The notes under the pieces are model-generated. The model searched no databases. It was not told the origin of the DNA and worked only from the letters and a program-made list of their open reading frames with translations. From Halichondria panicea (taxonomy: Eukaryota > Porifera > Demospongiae > Suberitida > Halichondriidae): a stretch of 64,000 nt of DNA. Of the stretch, positions 13,761 through 30,840 are shown piece by piece (position 1 is the stretch's first letter; each line of letters begins with the position of its first letter). Made by a program: the position numbers and the translations under genes. Location of the stretch: contig NC_087377.1 of assembly GCF_963675165.1 (NCBI RefSeq), forward strand, positions 1,203,501 through 1,267,500. The letters are read 5' to 3'.

Positions 13761-15418
13761 TTAGATGGTGATTTCAATCGGCATGACAATCATCTGGTCC
13801 CCATGACAAATCATGACATCACATGAGAATGGTTTGCTCCCTCCAAACAAATTCTGTACTTCAAATGTCGACTCTCTAACTTTCCGACTGAACAAATCCT
13901 GTGAAAAAAATAATAGCAAGGATTTACATCAATGTAGCATGAACTTTAAATTACGCAATCATTATAGCCTGCACTGCAATACATGCATCACACCACACAC
14001 ACCCACCCACACCACACCCACTTTTCATACCTTTTGTGTACTTCGTATTACGCTGAATCCAAATTCCAAATCTTCGAGTGACGTTGCCACGGTGAAGTCA
14101 TCACTAGATGCGGACACATTATCGTTTCCATGGAGCTCGTCACATTCCAATAGAGTGAACGATTCTATAGCCTTCAGCGAGACCAGGTCCTGTAGAGGAA
14201 AACAATCGCTAATTTAAATTAAACACATCATTATTTTGATACGCCTTTCAAAGAGCTTCAAAATGCGTTCAATCCCAGTTAAGTTATTGACCACCAAAGC
14301 AGCAACTTTTCAATATTCACAATGCCTGTGCTTTTCTGAAAACAGGGCCCCAAAGCATTTGCTAAATTCATTTGATACATACCTTTCAACGAGCTAGGAT
14401 ACTGATAGTATACTGACTAGTACACACAGAGGATTGCATAGTATCCTGACTAGTATACTGACCTTGATAAGTTCGTCGACAGTCTCCACTAGACAAACTT
14501 GCAGAATAAAGAAGCTTCTCTTGATCGAGTAGAACACAAGAGGTATGTAACTGCGAGGGCCGTCTGTAATCTTATTGGTCGGCGCATCTTCAGTTGGTTG
14601 CTATGGACATTAAAACACATAATCAGTTATGAGACATTATAGTAGAACTACAGGGCCATAATTTGTCATTTTTCGGTCTTGGATTTACTAAAAGTTAAAA
14701 AAGACAATTTAAATCTCAAATTTTGTCGGGACCATACGTACTTGTATTTGTCAGCTATGGTATTCGGTCAAAATAATTATGGCAAATTCTGCCATCTCTC
14801 AAATAACTTTGATGGTACCATATTTTGAGAGGTCTCTTTCTAAGCTTTCAGAAAATCATTATAAAGTCATTGAAATTGGATCCACAGAATTCAATTTGCA
14901 GCTAAAAAAGTCACCGAACCATTCATTGGAACGAGCTGGAGTACAACACTCAAAATTCACTATGCACTATGGTACTCATAATTATCATCACACCCTCACA
15001 CCTTAGTGACGGCGTCTGAACTGGTTGAACCGGTTTCCTTGAACTCTAGTTGGAACTCTCCGATATCCACTCCATTATTCACTCCGTCCACACACAGAGT
15101 CTGTGTTTCCCCCAGCCCTGGACTAGCACCGCTGGTATAGCCCGTATCGTTGGACTCTGTACTGTGCCGATCATGTGATACGTTGCCGTGGGATACGTTG
15201 CTCGGGATTATACGAGCAGTCATGTGACTGGATCCTTTTGTTACACGGCCGATAATTTCTTTAAGTCCTTTGTCGCTTGGTGATGGCGGTGGTATTTGGG
15301 TTTCAGTAGGGTTAAACATTTCGGGTGGTTCGACTAGTATGTCGTCCAGCGAGTTTCTGGATTCGTAGCAATCACTAGGTGGGCGGGCACTGTGGGTGGA
15401 GTGTGTGTGGTGTGTGGG

Positions 15419-15469
<51 letters not shown>

Positions 15470-16525
15470 AGGAGTGTGGTATGTACCGGGAGGATGGAGT
15501 GTGTATGTGGAGTGTGTGTGTAGGCGGGCACTGTGTGTGAGGGGTGAGCATGAGTGACCTACTAGAATACTTACGGGAGAGTATCGAATGGTTGCTCAGA
15601 CAGTCCAGTGTTCCCCCTCACACTGGGAGGTTGTGAGGAGGCTCTCCTGCGTGAGGTATCATCATCACAGCCCTCTCTTACACCACCGATCACCACCTGC
15701 ATGGAGTAATGTCCGTCAGTACACCCACACACACCCACGCCCACACACACCCACGCACACACACACACTACACTTTCATAATTACATAATTGAAATTGAA
15801 TACAAACTATCTCAAAGATAGCTACGAGTTCATTGGAAAAGTTTTTTTGCCCGGCCCTTGAATGAAGAAATTTTCAGGAATAAAAAGAGCTGAATATTGA
15901 TAACGCAATTATTAAGTCTATAGCATTAAAAAAAAAATTATTATTGGTGGTAATTGAAGCTCAAAGCTAGGCAGTCATCAAAAATTACATTGAAGATTAT
16001 AGCATATTTTGTGCTAATTACCTTTGAGTATCTGTTTGCTCTGGGGATGAGACTGCTGCCGGCATTATAGTCAGAGGGTCCAAAGGTCATATCCTTTGCA
16101 ACAGGGCTCATATCGAACATGTTGCCGGATTTCTTTACATGCTCTTCACTGATATCCAGAGCAGTGCTGTGTGTGTGTGTGGGCGTGTGAAGTGTGTGTG
16201 TGTGTGTGGGCATGTGTGCATGGGCGTGTATGTGTGAGGTGTGTGTATATAAGAAAGCACTACTATTACAAATGCTGATTTAAACCACCGTATACCACAT
16301 AGCAACGGGCAACAAGGAAGCTACTAGTAGCTGAGTGTTTCATAAAACAGTGTGTTCATGCAGTCAATTAATGTATTTAACTGACCCATTAATGACAGGG
16401 GTCCCCTCGTCCCCACTGCCCCCCTCCCTCTTGTCATCACCCTCGTCCTCTGAGTCCGAGCCTTTGTCTTCAAATAACGGCTGCTCAGGACGTAGAGTAA
16501 TCTTGCGGTACCTGAGTGTGTGTGT

Positions 16526-16575
<50 letters not shown>

Positions 16576-16576
16576 G

Positions 16577-16608
<32 letters not shown>

Positions 16609-19600
16609 CGTGTGTGTGTGTGTGTGTGTGTGCGTGTGTGTGTGTGCGTGTGTGTGTGTGCGTGTGTGTGTGGGTGTTTGGAATTAAACTGTATGCTTGC
16701 TATTTATTATTATCTGCCAACTGAAACCTGGGTCTCCGACACATTTTCGTGAGTGTGGGTGGGGGTGTCATGTGATTATCATGTGATAGTACATACCTGA
16801 ATGATCTCTTCATGTTAGAGTGAAGATGCAGTGCAGCGGACCGATCACTACCACCACTGAGACTGGGGTTAGGGGTCGACTGAAATGGAAGTACAATGCA
16901 CGTGTAATAACTACAAGAACGTTTAGTGAAAAAGAAAAATTAATAATGCACATGCTATAGAATAGTAATAGTTTGTACGTTTCACTCCCATTACAATGTA
17001 CATACATACTACGTAAGCAAATACACAGTTTGGGATGAAGTATATAAAAACATTTCTAATGGAAAAACACAGTGAGGATTAGTATAGGAAGAAAGAGGAA
17101 AGTATGCATACACAGCAACATACAATATAATTATACAGCGGTTTTTTATCATAATTAGAACACAAAGTGCAATTAACTCTACTATAGGCCTCACATAGGT
17201 GGTGGTGGTTGGTTGCACACGCCCACTCTTCACAGTCCCAGTCTTGACAGCCATGCCACGATGCAGTGATCCTGGCTTCTCCACAAATCCCACCGTCTGC
17301 ACAAGGATGGTAATAGGAATGCACGTTCATTTGGAAAGCACTAGAGTCGTCTCTGTAACTAGAGTTCTGGTGGGCCAAATTATGACTTGCTGAAAGATCT
17401 TTCAGATGGTATGCTCAAAGTTGGAACAGGCCATAATTTCCTATTTAAATTTTCAGGGAAAAACCATGGGCTATAATAGCCTACCGTAAACACACGCCCA
17501 AAAATACCAAAATAGACAGTTAATTATTATTAACACATCATCTGAAAGGCACTGTTATGTTAAAAAAAGAACGTTTTTGGATAAACGGAACTCCATTCAA
17601 AGATGCTCTATTTTAACGCTATATACATATATACCTTTTCTTTCTTTCGTTTTGGACTGCCTCCACTCTTGGCTGGCTCAACGATCTCCACGGTAGGTTT
17701 GGAAGACACAATAAAGTAGCCCTCCTTGGTTCGTTTGGCGGTTGCTAGGAAACCAGTGGGCGGGGGTACACGATTGGGGATCACTGTTACATAGCTAACG
17801 GGACGTACGTGAGCTGCAGAATAAAATAAAAGTTTTAATTTTAATAATTAATCAAGAGTATGATTTATAATGGACAGAGAGTATCAAACGTAGGCATACT
17901 GTACATCAGATGTATGCGGAGAGTAACGTGACTTCCTGTATCTGTCACGGGCTTGGAATTTGCACACTGACCAATCCAAGTGTATAGGTGAGGTACAGGG
18001 GCATAGGAAGGGGACTGGAGCCCCCCATCTTTCTAGCCTTATCAAGCGGCTCTATAATTATGTAAATTGCTTCCTATACCACTAATTCCAAGCTTTTGAC
18101 GGACACAGGAAGTCACGTTACTCTCTGCATACATCTGTATACCTACGGTCGATAACTACATACTCTTGGTAATATGCACATTAGTTACATAGTGACCGTG
18201 TGCGTGGGTGGGAGGGTAGTTACCTGGTGACGGTGTGGCTGACGTTGTACTGTACTCGCTGCATCGTGACTCACACTCAACGCTGACATCTGATTGGCCG
18301 GATGCTCTGAGATTAACAGTTTCGTTGCTGTTCCTCCCGAGATTTGCCAGAGAAATACCACTACCCTATAAGAAGATGAATATAAAAAGTCAAGCTAAAA
18401 CCCAATATTTTTAGCAATCGCTAATCATTTGAAGAAGTCTTTCAAAGAGCTACAAAATACATTCTTTAGATTTGTAATTGGACAATCCTAACTCAATTTA
18501 TATTGACTTATCAAAGATATAATTATATAGCTTCCAAACAGCTAATATTTGGAGAAATCACTATAAAGCTACATGCCTTTCAAAAGAATTGGCCTGAAAA
18601 AAATTGCTAATTAAATTGGACAATCCTAACTCAACTTACCCATTAAAGATAGCTACCAAATGATTTAGCTATAGTTGCTTTACCTTGGGCAGTGTTCCAT
18701 ATAGTTGTTGCTGTGGTGATCCGAGAGCATTGCGTGCCTTGGGCTTGACACGATGAACAGCAGGCTTGTCACGTGACTTCCTCAGGCCAATGTCCAGTAC
18801 CTCTATTGTCTCCCCTGTACACAAAGGGTTAATAATAATAGGGGTTAAACATGCTACCAGGAGTACATATAGCGTAAAAGTTACCTTATAGCAATCAGTA
18901 TACAGTACAGTTATGTTACTGAATGTTGTGGGTGTGGATCAACATTTTAACAAATCACTATTGCACAATGTTTAGTGGTAATCACCATCTTGGCTCTCAA
19001 TGTCTTGTCTACTAAGTAACTATTATTAGGTTTGAACTGCAACCAAATCAAATAAGGCATGCATGTACTGCAAGAGATCGCTAGTATTAGCCACTGTATA
19101 GCAAACACACATTGTCACAGCTATAGGAGGATCCAGGCTCATTAAAATAACGATATCTAGAGACTACACCTATGAAATTGCAATGACTTGCAGTGACCTT
19201 GTGGTAACACTGTGTATGCACTGTAATAATTAAACAACAATCTGCTCTATTGCATGTACTATAGGAACTGAACAAAACACAAATTTCTGTATAATTGGGC
19301 CATCTGCATGTGGCTGCATGCCAGGGAATGTTCTTTGTACACTTATTTAGTGTAGACCGCTAGTTATGGCAACGGCGAGGTTGTGTCCATGTATGAATGA
19401 ACGCTCCCAATAAGCACTTAGAGACCATGTTTGAACAGTGGGGAGTACCACAATACGCTATTGTCTCCAAGCAGATCAACTAGACACATCAAGATATCTG
19501 AAAAATGCTCAGACAACAAACAACACGTTTGTGTTGTTGTTCTATTGGCCCAGTGAACTAGCTATTACTATCACTGCTATTCCTGAAGTGACACAGTGCT

Positions 19601-21393
19601 TCAGTTCTATTGAAACCTTGCATTGTGTGTGTGTTACAGTTCATAGACATAGAGCTTCATCTGAATAACAGTATTTTGGCTAAGTATAAACATTTCCCAG
19701 TTGATACGTACTATCAGTCTGTGTGTAATAGTTGTGACATGCACGAGTGTCACATGCATGGGATATATTGGCTCAGTAGTGACTTAGACCCGAGGGTCAA
19801 TGTGTGCGCATGAGTACGTGAAGCTGTGGCACAGTGTTTCCTTTGCCATCTCAGAGGTCAAAATGCAACCAAGAGTGCATGGTTCTATATACTGCATGCA
19901 GACTAGATCTATACTAATAGCGATAATTATACCACTGTCTAATTGTCCATTGCTATGCTTCTAAAGAGTGTACTGTGCCTAGCAGTGTCTCACACAAACA
20001 GGAAACGTATATACAGTAGTACAATATAAACAAACACACAAACATTCCCCCATGGTCGCTTACTTGGAGCAAGTATGAGCATAATTAGAGGTGAGGAAAT
20101 TTAATAGCACTTATTAGTAGGATTCTAAAAGAGGCTGTAAAATTATGACATTGCTGTTAATAATATTTAATAAGGCTCTGTTTATCAATAGCATGCAGCA
20201 CAGAGTATAATCAAGACTGTGCGCTATGTACACTGTATACTGTACAATAGCAATCAACTGTGTTTTGGCTGCATAGAAGCCAGAGGACAGACCAGTCTCT
20301 AGCTGATGTGTTCATACAACACACATTCTGTGTTGAGACTGACAAGCTGCATTGTTGGGTTACACCTCTCGACACAGAGCACAATAGACAAAAGAGCTAT
20401 AGCACAGAGTCTAATCACAGGGCTCACATGCACTCAGACTGGTGATATTTCGCTAACTCGGAAGCTATCTTTGAGATTAAAATGCACACTGTATTTATGT
20501 GCTTGGAACTATCGATGCCTAAAACCATGATTGCCTTTGTATTGAGTCAACACGGAGCACAATAGACAATAGAGCTAGCACAGAGTCTAATGACAGGGCT
20601 CATAGTTGGGTCATCATCGCCCAGTTTCCGTGAAACAAAATGCACTCAAGTTGGTGATTTCTCAGAAAACCACTAAATAAATTCGGAAGCTATAGAATAA
20701 AATACATTGTGTATATTATGCGCTCCTGGAAATAGTACCCAAAACCATTATTGCCTTCACATAATAATGATGATAATACTGTCTATAGTACAACACAGTA
20801 GAGCTATAGCACAGAGTCTAATAACAGGGCTCACACGAACTCACCTTCTTGAGCATTCTTTGTCTTCTCCAGTAGATAGGACCACTGTAACATGAGTGGG
20901 TCAGACGGAGCAGCAAAGAAGAACGTTCGCTTGAAGGTCCCTATACTGAGTATATGCTGCTGATTCTTGTACTCCAGTCCAATCTCCAGGTTGATGCAAC
21001 TGCGTAGGTCGATGACACGTCGAGGAGATTTGTGGGACAAAGCTGCCTTGCGTGTTTTGAACGTCTCCAATGTTCTATTGGCCCTCAGCACGATGTAACG
21101 CTCGTGCCATTTCTAAGCAAGAGAGGCAATAAACAACCAAATAAAGCATTTATTTACTAGCCATAGTGCATGCTTGTAATTAAAAATTTAGGGAGTGTAA
21201 CAGTTTTTGGCCGGCACACCGTTACAAGGCTATGTACAGCACAGCACTATTGTCCACCTACTAGGGCATGTTGACTACACACACACACCTTTCGGCCTCT
21301 TCTGTTTAGTGGAGGAGCTTTCAACAGGTTGCCAGCAAATATGCTCTCCTTTGAGCTTGAGTTGATCTCCACGGTGGCTGCCACACTTGACAT
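13761..21393 (-). CDS. PH-domain adaptor-like protein, complete, 14 exons, 736 aa
   Basis: Exons (5' to 3', minus strand): 21393-21289, 21112-20845, 18814-18684, 18365-18224, 17813-17635, 17296-17195, 16879-16797, 16511-16386, 16166-16022, 15696-15575, 15374-15002, 14600-14463, 14189-14031, 13898-13761. All have GT-AG ends and compatible phases, and the sum is exactly 737 codons. Residues about 19-120 form a pleckstrin-homology domain: FAGNLLKAPP, then KKWHERYIVL, a TLETFKT strand, and FFAAPSDPLMLQWSYLLEK with the invariant helix Trp. This resembles GAB/DOK/IRS-type docking proteins that bind phosphoinositides. No PTB domain is visible. The rest is polar and probably disordered: KRKK-type basic patch near 270, an acidic Ser/Glu/Asp stretch near 353-373, Pro motifs near 495, and a more ordered C-terminus (about 605-736) that I do not recognise. 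A weak likeness of residues 217-260 to the start of MABP domains was considered but is not claimed. Confidence 0.85.
14205..14275. repeat. Family E repeat in an intron
   Basis: CAATCGCTAATTTAAATTAAACACATC followed by CTTTCAAAGAGCT. The same motif occurs at about 12600, 18410, 23590 (inverted) and 60985, often in or near introns. Confidence 0.6.
15415..15469. repeat. (TG)n microsatellite in intron
   Basis: Long TG run between two exons of the PH-domain gene. On the gene strand it is CA-rich, upstream of the acceptor at 15375. Confidence 0.85.
16515..16674. repeat. (TG)n/(CG)n microsatellite in intron
   Basis: TG run with a central CGCGCGCGCG block and scattered TGCG interruptions, starting four bases outside the acceptor of exon 8 of the PH-domain gene. 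Alternating purine-pyrimidine tracts of this length can adopt Z-DNA; that is inference. Confidence 0.9.
17889..18152. mobile_element. TIR MITE in intron of PH-domain gene
   Basis: The left arm holds AGATGTATGC and GAGAGTAACGTGACTTCCTG, the right arm the inverse (CAGGAAGTCACGTTACTCTC, GCATACATCT). Both continue inward to CTTGGAATT/AATTCCAAG. The arms are about 60 bases with few differences. The centre holds CCCC/CCCCATC stretches and no frame. Confidence 0.8.
20372..20838. repeat. Three-unit tandem repeat beside exon 2 of PH gene
   Basis: Units beginning near 20372, 20552 and 20790 share AGCACAATAGACAA, AGAGCTATAGCACAGAGTCT and ACAGGGCTCA. The first two also share TCGGAAGCTAT and AAAACCAT.ATTGCCTT. 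The last unit ends next to the splice donor of exon 2 (20845-21112), so the array lies within the intron. Confidence 0.75.
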
Positions 21394-23974: not shown

Positions 23975-24190
23975 CATACCGTTATTATAAATATTAATTT
24001 TTGCTGGTGAAAAACCTTTTGCAATTGAGCAGAAAAATATCACTTACAATCTATACCATTGCATTCTGGCAAGGATTGTAAATACCGGCATATACTATTT
24101 TAGGCTCTGCGATTTTATTTTGCGAAGTGATCAACACTCTCAAAGTTTGCATAATTATGTGATGCTCGCAAAACGTTCTATAGTAATACG
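23975..24190. repeat. Family B repeat, copy between GTF2H5 and secreted gene
   Basis: GGTGAAAAACCTTTTGCAA, TGCGATTTTATTTTGCGAAG, TGATCAACACT and GATGCTCGCAAAACGTTCTA correspond in order to the copy at 1065-1265. Confidence 0.7.
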
Positions 24191-24370
24191 GTTGTCACTG
24201 TCGGTGTTTTTATGCTTTGATGTCTATAGTGTTTTGTCGTGTCTTGTTTTGTTGTGGTAGTATCATTGACAACAGTTTGCATGGGTGGAGGTGTTTTAAT
24301 GGTATACATTATAGGTGATAATAAATGAATATGGACTAAACAACATCGTAATTGTGTGTATACTGGCGGG

Positions 24371-24404
24371 TATATAAGAGGTTCTGTACACAGTTGGTGT
24401 CAGT
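24371..24404 (+). promoter_or_regulatory. TATA box and initiator-like site
   Basis: TATATAAG starts at 24371, and TGTCAGTA lies about 28 bases downstream (near 24398), a spacing typical of TATA-Inr promoters. The first ATG follows at 24423. Confidence 0.6.
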
Positions 24405-24422: not shown

Positions 24423-25709
24423 ATGAGCAAAATGAAGGGCCTAAAACTTCTCTTAATGTTTGCAATAGTTCTGGTTGTTGTCGAAGCTAAGAAGACTTCT
24501 AGACTTGTACTAGTGTCCCCAGATTCAACCATGGAAAAGGATTTAGTATCCAGCTTCAAAGAACAAGGATTTGATGAAGTGGACATGATCAATATGAGAG
24601 ATTATGGGAACGAGTTTCAATTTCGATATAAAATTATAACCAAGCAACCAATATGGAAAGCATACTTAATCCTACCACAATATGTCTACCTCAACGGATC
24701 TGTGAGATATTTCGAAGAGTTTCGAGATTTTCGAATTTTTTGCAAGCGGAGATCTGTAATTATCGAAAGCAAGCGAGTCGGTTTATTTCATGTTAGTGTG
24801 CTGACGAAACGAAATGGACAACGCGGAAAACGTGCGCTAGCTGTGGACAACATGATTCTTAACGCTGGAATGACTACAGGCTGTCAAAATGTTTGTGATG
24901 CAAAGAAAAAAACGTGCCCGAAAGAATCCTCCAAACATCTCCCCCCTGCTACATTGGAGTGCCCTCCGAATAACGAGTGCAATATTATATCACATGATGC
25001 CTCCATCTATAACACATCTTCTGGAATAGTCGTGCAGCCGATTGGAAATGCACAAGTTGTGAAAACATGCGATGAGTTCATAAAAGTGGTGATGGATAAA
25101 TTCGCAGCGAAAGGCGGTAAAGTTGCCGTATATTTGGATGCTCACGGTAACCATGGTATATTTGCAATTGGAGTGTATGGTGGTAAACCAGAACTGGTGT
25201 TTAAGGGCAGCGCTTGCTATAACAAGATGTGCATGGAGCTCAAGGATAAGATAAGCACACTGACACTGTTCACATGCAGCACGGCAGGTGGTACAACTGG
25301 ACCACCATTTCTGCAGTGTTTGGCGAATTGTTTGAATGCGAATGTTAAAGCTTGGAAGAAAGCAGTGTCAATACAAGCAGCTTGGAACACTACTGATGTG
25401 ACCTCTATCAAGTGGTCTACCCCACGTAATTATTCGACTCCTTGCGAAGCTAACCCCTCACCAAGCCCGTCCATCACACCCTCCACACCCACACCAACGC
25501 CCACACCATCCACTCCCACACCAAGCCCGTCTACCACCACCACATCCACGCCCACATCATCCAGTACTTATACGTTCACATCCGAGCCCATGTATTCCGA
25601 AGAGCCCACAACCGTCACCGAGTACACTGAGACACCAACTGAATACACCTACTCCGATTATTTGTACACAAGCCCACCAGCTGAAGATTACTATGACTAC
25701 GCTTATTAG
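24423..25709 (+). CDS. Secreted protein, possible clan CD peptidase-like domain, single exon
   Basis: Intronless 428-aa frame with its own TATA box and a poly(A) signal. Translation could start at 24423 or at the ATG at 24432, whose product opens directly with a signal peptide (MKGLKLLLMFAIVLVVVEA). Residues 25-140 form an N-terminal region ending in basic RGKR near 134-137, a possible proprotein cleavage site. Residues 150-345 are cysteine-rich. They contain KVAVYLDAHGNHG (H241, G242) and, 40 residues later, STLTLFTCSTAGG (C285). A hydrophobic strand before His-Gly and another ending in Cys is the hallmark layout of clan CD cysteine peptidases (caspase, legumain and gingipain types). A Pro/Ser/Thr-rich linker follows (345-395), then a Tyr/Glu-rich tail with no membrane anchor. 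The peptidase reading is inference from motif spacing; I cannot name a family. Confidence 0.85.
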   Translation: MSKMKGLKLLLMFAIVLVVVEAKKTSRLVLVSPDSTMEKDLVSSFKEQGFDEVDMINMRDYGNEFQFRYKIITKQPIWKAYLILPQYVYLNGSVRYFEEFRDFRIFCKRRSVIIESKRVGLFHVSVLTKRNGQRGKRALAVDNMILNAGMTTGCQNVCDAKKKTCPKESSKHLPPATLECPPNNECNIISHDASIYNTSSGIVVQPIGNAQVVKTCDEFIKVVMDKFAAKGGKVAVYLDAHGNHGIFAIGVYGGKPELVFKGSACYNKMCMELKDKISTLTLFTCSTAGGTTGPPFLQCLANCLNANVKAWKKAVSIQAAWNTTDVTSIKWSTPRNYSTPCEANPSPSPSITPSTPTPTPTPSTPTPSPSTTTTSTPTSSSTYTFTSEPMYSEEPTTVTEYTETPTEYTYSDYLYTSPPAEDYYDYAY

Positions 25710-25875: not shown

Positions 25876-25881
25876 AATAAA
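25876..25881 (+). terminator. Poly(A) signal
   Basis: AATAAA (within AATAAATAAATAAG), 167 bases after the stop codon of the secreted gene. Confidence 0.6.
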
Positions 25882-26000
25882 TAAATAAGTACAGTACACG
25901 TATTATCTGCGTACATGTGTTGCTCGCTATAAAACTGCTGTATATATATACAATGTATAATTCGCACTGGGTGAGGAGGTTTATAAAAATTAATAGTAAG

Positions 26001-29000: not shown

Positions 29001-30729
29001 TCATACTAAACACTTTCAGGCCCTTCTTCCCTTTAAAAAGCGTCCGATGAATTTGCTTGACAATAAAAATCTCGTTTTCCTCGACAATGTATTTGCCATC
29101 GTTGGTCCGATCTTCTTGCGTAGAGCAGATGACTTTGGGTAACGAGTGGGCGGTCGTTATATCCGCGATACTTTTAAAGACGTGACCTTCTAAACCTTTA
29201 ACGTCGCTGTGGGTTGGGTTGTATATGAGACCCACTTTTTGTGTAGAGTCGAGTGGAATGCGATGAACGGTACCACTGTCAGCTTTAACCGTCACCACCT
29301 GGAATGGAAAATGGTTAATTATAGCTAATACTTCAAGATCTACGTACACAATTAATTATCCCTGTAAAAATAGTAATACGCAATTACAATTATAGATTCC
29401 ACACTTGGATGAATTTTGTTTGGGCAAGTATAATTATTGCAATTGTTCCTAGTTCAAGTTAGCCAATGAAGCTAACTATAATAATTATTATTATAATAAT
29501 TATAACACTACTAATAATTTTGAAATTCTCTTAATTAGGATACGTACCTTAGTCTCCTTCACTGAGTGGATATCGTACACATCGTTGGTGGACATGTTCA
29601 CGTCTGAAGCATCATTACAATATCCTTGTAGCACTCTGAAACGAATTGGATAGCAATCGGAATATCTCTTCAACGCCCCCTCGAGGGTGGAGTCAGTGGG
29701 TGTGGTCACTTCACTCGTCCTACGGCTCTCATTACTAGTGGGCGTGTACGTTCTAGCTGGTAAAGGGGGAGGAGCTTCAACACTAGCGGCAGGAAGGCTG
29801 GAAATCGAATCGCTTAGTTTACTGGTATCGGCTTCGCAAGTTGTTGGTTTCAACTCAGAGTATGTTTCAAAATCATCCAATACCATCACACCACTAATTG
29901 CAAGGGGCGTGGTTTGCACAGTTGGTGATAATATAGCGTGCTGTTCTGTTGGTAGCGGCGGCAGCTCTCTGTTCTTTATATCAGAACCCTCAATGTTTGA
30001 CCTGCTTTCTCGTGAAGACAATACTGGAGTAACCGCTCTCTCTTGAGGCAAAGAGGGCAATTCTTTCTTCAGTTTGTTGGCCATTTCATCGAATTTCGAT
30101 CGGCTAGCTTCTGTGCTTTTCAGTGGTCTTTCTTTCGGAGGTGGTGTGGTGGATGCAGTTAGTTCCATTCCTGGCAGTTTCCATAAACCACCACCTCGTA
30201 CCTCACTCGTTGGTTCATCTTCTAAAACATTCACCGATAATCGTTTGCTACTGTCTCTCTTTTTTGTGGTTTTTAGTCGTTGTAAAGTTAAAGAACCGCT
30301 TGTCAGAGCACGCTTCAATCGCGACGGCTTGTTCGGAGGTTTAGGTTTCTCTTTCTTACCATCGCCTGTTTTACCATCATTCTCTGTGCTGCTTTTGTTG
30401 ACATCGTCTTCAGGTTTAGTGTTTATATTGATTTCTTGTGAGGAGTGGGAAAGTTTCTCCTTTGAGCCACTGTGGCTAGTATCCACGCTGAGTGTACTGC
30501 TTGCTTTCGAACTATTCCCACTTTCGCTAATGGGGGCATTTTCAATTGATGCTGTTTCTATCTCTTCTGTCAGTGGTAGTGGTGGTGGTGGTGGGGGGTC
30601 TTGTTTTGTCTCCCTGGGTGGTGTCTTTGAGGCTCCGTTGGCATTGGAGGGTGTGGCCTTGTTGCTAGGTAACAGCGGAGGGAGGGGTGGTGGGGGTGGA
30701 GGGGTGAACTTCTTTTTCAGTAGAGGCAT
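26001..30729 (-). CDS. GAREM-like adaptor: proline-rich, CABIT and SAM domains, 910 aa
   Basis: Exons (minus strand): 30729-29548, 29298-28827, 28544-28040, 27557-27357, 26824-26653, 26201-26001; phases 0, 1, 2, 2, 0; 911 codons with stop. Residues 1-355 are low-complexity with polyproline runs (TPPPPPPLPPLLP, PPPPPPLPL) suited to SH3/WW partners and basic patches. A CABIT domain spans about 360-535: it opens YPIRFRVLQGY and carries the core LP-x4-G-x-F motif as LPEDCCGYF (501-509). Then comes an acidic segment with Tyr-Asp-Asp sites (PTYDDTV, HLYDDTV), possible SH2-ligand tyrosines. A short coiled-coil-like exon follows (TQLTTKLEAMESQLQ). The C-terminal SAM domain is about 848-905 (MSLGQYREHLERELVTGDIL...LGIKSRIQRIRVMKVI). 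CABIT plus SAM is the GAREM layout (Grb2-binding regulators of Erk/MAPK). In vertebrate GAREM the CABIT is N-terminal, so the long proline-rich head is different. An AG acceptor sits two bases before the ATG, implying a 5' UTR exon further upstream. Confidence 0.87.
27115..27345. repeat. Family B repeat in GAREM-like gene intron
   Basis: ATTACTAGAAAATGTTTTGGGTGA, AAATGAGC.AAATCAGCAG and AAGTGATCAAAGCTCGCAAAG match the copies at 1065 and 23975. It lies between exons 4 and 5. Confidence 0.65.
27755..27925. repeat. Imperfect inverted repeat in intron
   Basis: Segments ATTTCCTGAAAAATGGCAGG...GGATAGTGCAGGACA and TACAGGAAATTTTGCACTATCCTG...TAGGAAAT are partly inverted copies of each other. Probably an old MITE; ends are not defined. 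Confidence 0.4.
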
Positions 30730-30840
30730 ACCTGCATGTACTCTTGTGTGTGCATGGTATAATTGATGACATCATTATTATACCATAATAATAATAGTGT
30801 TTAATTTTTATAAACGCAACGTGCATTGACAGCATTAAGC

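Follow-up and report, generated by a model that had tools for sequence, protein, structure and literature searches.

A predicted secreted protein of the demosponge Halichondria panicea with a divergent DUF4347 core

Clan CD comprises families such as legumain (C13), C11, gingipain (C25), the RTX cysteine protease domain (C80), the caspases (C14) and CHAT, which are characterised by a His-Gly/Cys arrangement and include secretory zymogens. DUF4347 (PF14252) is a bacterial domain with a caspase-type protease fold. It occurs in giant surface proteins, within frames of 424-9825 amino acids in six genomes, and such long frames resemble adhesins. The domain is also present in Tce1 (PA0256) of Pseudomonas aeruginosa, a type VI cargo for which a His/Cys dyad has been proposed in a paper that never mentions DUF4347 by name (PMC13323088). 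Among the secreted proteins listed in a study on the snail Biomphalaria glabrata is BGLB031575, a DUF4347 domain-containing protein of 24.7 kDa (PMC6744689), and a table on a green alga includes a DUF4347 protein (PMC10451321). The family thus has earlier records in eukaryotes. No enzymatic test of DUF4347 was found in the literature searched.

In this work we focused on an intronless gene of the sponge Halichondria panicea, located in a stretch of 64,000 nucleotides (hereafter the window; contig NC_087377.1, positions 1,203,501 to 1,267,500, forward strand), whose positions are used throughout. The original prediction, made from the sequence of the window, was that this gene encodes a secreted protein with a caspase-clan-like His/Cys pair, a Pro/Thr stalk and a Tyr-rich tail. 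That observation was confirmed, and its interpretation was partly supported. As judged from its sequence, the core of the protein is a divergent relative of DUF4347, and we consider it probable that the gene specifies a secreted, zymogen-like protein in which this core acts as a His/Cys peptidase.

Kinship of the core domain to DUF4347

The coding sequence and the features of its core are as follows.

24423..25709, + strand: coding sequence, intronless, one continuous frame of 428 codons (428 amino acids), from the open reading frame call with the DUF4347 match in frame
25050..25355, + strand: divergent DUF4347/clan-CD-like core, residues 210-311 (core as a whole about residues 211-321), from profile, reciprocal search and model
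25143..25145, + strand: H241, predicted catalytic His, aligned with the conserved DUF4347 His
25275..25277, + strand: C285, predicted nucleophile within C..A.G..G..F, aligned with the conserved DUF4347 Cys

A Pfam search with the full-length protein returned DUF4347 only (residues 231-314, E = 0.005, 17.1 bits), and residues 138-345, from which the prepro part and the tail had been removed, gave E = 0.0013 and 19.0 bits. Both scores (17.1-19.0 bits) lie below the Pfam membership cut-off of 24.6 bits, so that standard annotation would label the protein unknown. Homology was detectable by other routes, namely the reciprocal search and the shuffle and reversed controls described below. When the whole genome (131 Mb in 39 contigs, the window lying on contig C1) was searched for the family, this locus alone was found (19.0 bits, E = 0.07 for the genome), and the 14 control genomes gave no match.

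A bacterial reference set of at least 117 stretches was gathered using the motif YGC[ND]VA.G..G; in each of the six source genomes that were searched with the Pfam DUF4347 model there were matches above the cut-off, the best of each genome scoring 175-195 bits. Eleven stretches were removed because of short upstream sequence, the lack of an HG-like motif or chance frames, leaving 106, retained only if an HG- or NG-like motif lay upstream of the Cys motif. The profile built from them scored 17.0 bits against the sponge protein (p = 2.2e-7), compared with a maximum of 2.2 bits among 1000 shuffled versions of that protein and 3.5 bits for the runner-up among the 1140 window frames longer than 30 amino acids.

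For the reciprocal search, sponge residues 200-345 alone, with no profile, served as query in a six-frame search of 984 bacterial genomes, sampled from the phyla of a cyanobacterium (292), of Rugamonas (398) and of a planctomycete (294). This yielded 18 matches at E<=0.01, about 10 being expected by chance. Twelve were DUF4347 proteins (7/8, 4/7 and 1/3 in the respective samples) and the remaining six were not. The single DUF4347 match of the planctomycete phylum comes from the genome that had served as starting point there, which was known beforehand to carry the family; in the two remaining starting genomes the sponge domain found nothing. On the bacterial profile 11 of the 12 scored 117-208 bits, and the twelfth, L136, scored 35 bits, with 25.5 bits in Pfam, barely above the cut-off. 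The reversed sequence, searched against the 292 genomes of the cyanobacterial phylum, produced four matches, none of them DUF4347, the best at E = 1.6e-4; single E-values are therefore unreliable here, and the evidence lies in the enrichment of one family. L136 itself (positions 1036-2085 of its locus) is a bacterial protein of 350 amino acids that shares the HG/C motif and forms a distant, stand-alone DUF4347 branch; within the sample of its phylum it is the top match of the sponge domain.

HG and C were present in all 12 reciprocal DUF4347 matches, a set chosen on neither residue, and H241 and C285 align with these conserved positions, which supports the predicted clan-CD-like His/Cys pair. 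The original prediction had the two residues right and their spacing, given as about 40, slightly short: it is 44 in the sponge protein, and 43 in 73 of the 106 bacterial domains when the HG-like motif nearest to 43 is taken. The conserved His was found in 105 of these 106 motif-selected domains. We further aligned 60 of 62 bacterial representatives sharing less than 52% identity (L016 and L081 were omitted) with the sponge protein. H241, C285, A288, G290, G293 and W321 fell on columns invariant across the 61 rows; the 60 bacterial rows had been preselected on the Cys/Ala/Gly motif and on an HG/NG-like motif, and the Trp was not a selection criterion. Overall identity between the sponge core and DUF4347 is 13-22%. 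The pattern HG..G-x(30-50)-C..A.G..G, which was devised after inspection of the alignment, did not occur in 200,000 shuffles of the protein. In the omitted L081 (- strand, around 649-680), a cyanobacterial DUF4347, Asn replaces the conserved His, so that the invariance of the His applies to the 60 aligned rows and to 105 of the 106 domains; L081 is probably a natural inactive version.

Modelling gave mixed results on the proposed caspase-haemoglobinase fold. An alignment-based model of the core (blocks at pLDDT 86-94, one block at 76) groups with clan CD structures, although the alignment behind it itself carries DUF4347. By Z score its top structural match is Tce1 (PDB 9qpe chain G; Z 13.5, 3.3 A, 146 aligned residues), which ranks second by Foldseek E-value; a family missing from the list of structural matches is not thereby excluded. 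In this model, whose residue numbers are 149 lower than those of the protein, strand 234-239 (protein numbering) leads to H241-G242 and strand 277-283 to C285, which is the clan CD arrangement. A model made without an alignment reached pLDDT 40 and had unrelated PDB matches, while its order of secondary structure elements (model residues 62-136) resembles that of the alignment-based model. As to the named clan CD families, Pfam returned no match to C11, C13, C14, C25 or C80, nor to CHAT, at E<=10, a search in which the HMMER filters discard most weak matches.

Three results weigh against kinship and would favour the view that the fold is unrelated to DUF4347 and clan CD and that its His/Cys spacing arose by convergence: the Pfam score below the cut-off, the poor model obtained without an alignment, and a weak hhalign comparison with the single sponge sequence as a profile (probability 0.5%, E = 0.068), whose alignment nonetheless pairs H241 and C285 as expected. 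Convergence would have to account for the 12 DUF4347 proteins among 18 reciprocal matches, against 0/4 in the reversed control, and for a profile score of 17.0 bits where shuffled sequences reach no more than 2.2, and we regard it as very unlikely.

The gene, its secretion features and its relatives

The remaining features of the locus are listed below.

24371..24377, + strand: TATA box TATATAA, by motif scan
24400..24404, + strand: initiator TCAGT, with A+1 at 24402, 21 bases 5' of the ATG, by motif scan and sequence
24423..24488, + strand: putative signal peptide, residues 1-22, with cleavage after VVEA, from hydropathy windows starting at 4-11
24489..24833, + strand: putative propeptide, residues 23-137, deduced from the furin-type site
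24822..24833, + strand: RGKR furin-type site, residues 134-137, the protein's sole R-X-[KR]-R
25455..25568, + strand: Pro/Thr/Ser linker, residues 345-382, by composition
25569..25706, + strand: Tyr/Glu-rich tail, residues 383-428, by composition
25876..25885, + strand: polyadenylation signals AATAAATAAA (AATAAA at 25876 and 25880), by motif scan

The predicted lack of introns and the gene's own TATA-Inr promoter hold; the two elements lie 29 bases apart (24371 to 24400). The two strands of the window together contain nine such TATA+Inr pairs, so that one pair by itself is not rare. As regards the supposedly multi-exon neighbours, a brief look showed a PH-domain exon (20831-21112, - strand) and open frames of up to 423 amino acids (29500-30771, - strand). 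Elsewhere in the window, long CA/GT dinucleotide-rich runs at 15300-16700 give rise to spurious His/Thr-rich frames.

The presumed signal peptide and RGKR site were also found as described. In 15-residue windows (threshold 1.6), residues 4-25 form the only hydrophobic stretch, none being C-terminal, and are the one part that could act as a signal or membrane segment; the sequence thus supports secretion. The putative propeptide contains no known domain (best E = 0.091 in Pfam and 0.024 in PDB). Composition likewise agrees with the predicted stalk and tail: residues 345-428 comprise 24 Thr, 17 Pro, 15 Ser and 11 Tyr, and the last 43 residues include 10 Tyr, 7 Glu and 3 Asp. Four N-glycosylation sequons are present in the protein.

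Of the two origins suggested originally, retroposition was rejected: no poly-A tract follows the gene, where runs of A reach at most 5 bases, no direct repeat of more than 8 bases flanks it, and it has its own TATA-Inr. Acquisition by transfer from bacteria is plausible, and the frequency of DUF4347 in bacteria together with its absence from the 14 control genomes fits it. GC3 of the coding sequence (43% overall, 40% in the globular part) is close to the window GC of 40%; composition thus gives no sign of foreign origin and is still compatible with an old transfer. No close relative was found in viral contigs and genome contigs by pattern and tblastn, nor in phages by tblastn, nor in plasmids by tblastn, where two matches (E 0.7 and 0.8) lay in unrelated genes. 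No convincing family emerged from PHROGs, NCBIfam or PADLOC (PADLOC best E 0.011, residues 37-63).

Exon-by-exon scoring of the best candidates in the genome revealed no full-length paralogue, one other match (E = 7.8) concerning the Pro/Thr part. A piece of 64 bp standing alone on another contig (G000:C7:3302745-3302808, that is L004 1504-1567) is 91% identical to the segment for residues 118-139, across the furin site. An in-frame stop directly precedes it, and some 250 bp away lies one copy of a dispersed repeat (L004 1059-1255), which also occurs just upstream of the gene (window 24000-24193); the piece is possibly a captured gene fragment. This repeat has 955 candidate copies, of which 40 were scored, including the window copy, and the other listed copies are 74-78% identical. 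Adjoining the fragment, at about 2440-3075 of L004, is a NACHT-type ATPase frame with a GNAGIGKST motif, NLR-like by eye. The pattern CGASYAF occurs at three places within 11 kb (G000:C2:656915-667884), with none in the backward control. Translation of one of them gave silicatein alpha as the best PDB match (E = 5.8e-12), ranking above cathepsins among the best 60 of 137 PDB matches. To our knowledge, silicatein is restricted to sponges, and this silicatein-like exon points to a host that is probably a siliceous demosponge.

Proposed function and alternatives

According to the reading that we prefer, the signal peptide would direct export, and a furin-type cut after RGKR-137 would remove the 115-residue propeptide. 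The released core would adopt the caspase-haemoglobinase (clan CD) fold, for which homology supports both fold and residues, with H241 and C285 as a putative cysteine-peptidase dyad. To judge by composition, the linker may serve as a mucin-like flexible spacer, probably O-glycosylated, and the acidic Tyr-rich tail, prone to sulfation or cross-linking, as an anchor to the matrix or to a partner. Its most likely targets would be extracellular proteins on sponge cells or in the matrix, or its own chain.

The same tail would suit a pseudo-enzyme or structural matrix protein, in which the DUF4347 fold serves for binding, the dyad is a relic and the Pro/Thr and Tyr-rich regions do the main job in matrix, adhesive or skeleton glue. 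The long bacterial frames are consistent with such a role, and the accessible text of PMC13323088 reports no cleavage by the DUF4347 domain. H241, C285 and the following glycines are, however, among the few residues kept at 13-22% identity, and we judge a pseudo-enzyme unlikely. Another activity on the clan CD scaffold, a transpeptidase or ligase comparable to legumain-type ligases and GPI transamidase, could link the Tyr/Thr tail to matrix partners; we give this very little weight.

If the protein is a secreted peptidase as we propose, it may, more tentatively, represent an extracellular animal branch of clan CD peptidases apart from legumain and GPI transamidase. In this somewhat doubtful extension, sponges, and perhaps molluscs in a separate event, would have acquired a bacterial surface-protein domain that became a furin-activated peptidase, held at the matrix through its glycosylated stalk and a Tyr tail bearing sulfate or cross-links. 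An animal form that is soluble and processed by furin would be a tractable protein for asking whether DUF4347 is a cysteine peptidase, and the present case suggests that secreted clan CD members are hidden under annotation cut-offs in animal genomes.

Comparison with known systems

The literature search, which left most subscription journals outside its scope, found no sponge DUF4347 protein. The architecture described here is undescribed in the literature searched, while the family itself is known; the supposed undescribed secreted enzyme is thus new in its layout and not in its domain. The alignment-based model of the sponge protein resembles the established clan CD families in fold, and the protein differs from them in the lack of any Pfam match to these families. 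Tce1 shares the DUF4347 domain and differs in being a bacterial type VI cargo, with 14% identity over the structural alignment. BGLB031575 resembles the sponge protein in being an animal protein, DUF4347-named and on a secreted list; it is much smaller, and therefore probably devoid of a sponge-type tail. The bacterial giant surface proteins share with the sponge protein the His-Gly..Gly motif, a Cys 38-58 residues further on, the C..A.G..G..F motif and the conserved Trp. They differ in holding the domain within far longer frames, whereas the sponge domain, 13-22% identical to theirs, stands in a predicted secreted protein of 428 amino acids with a putative propeptide, a Pro/Thr linker and a Tyr tail.
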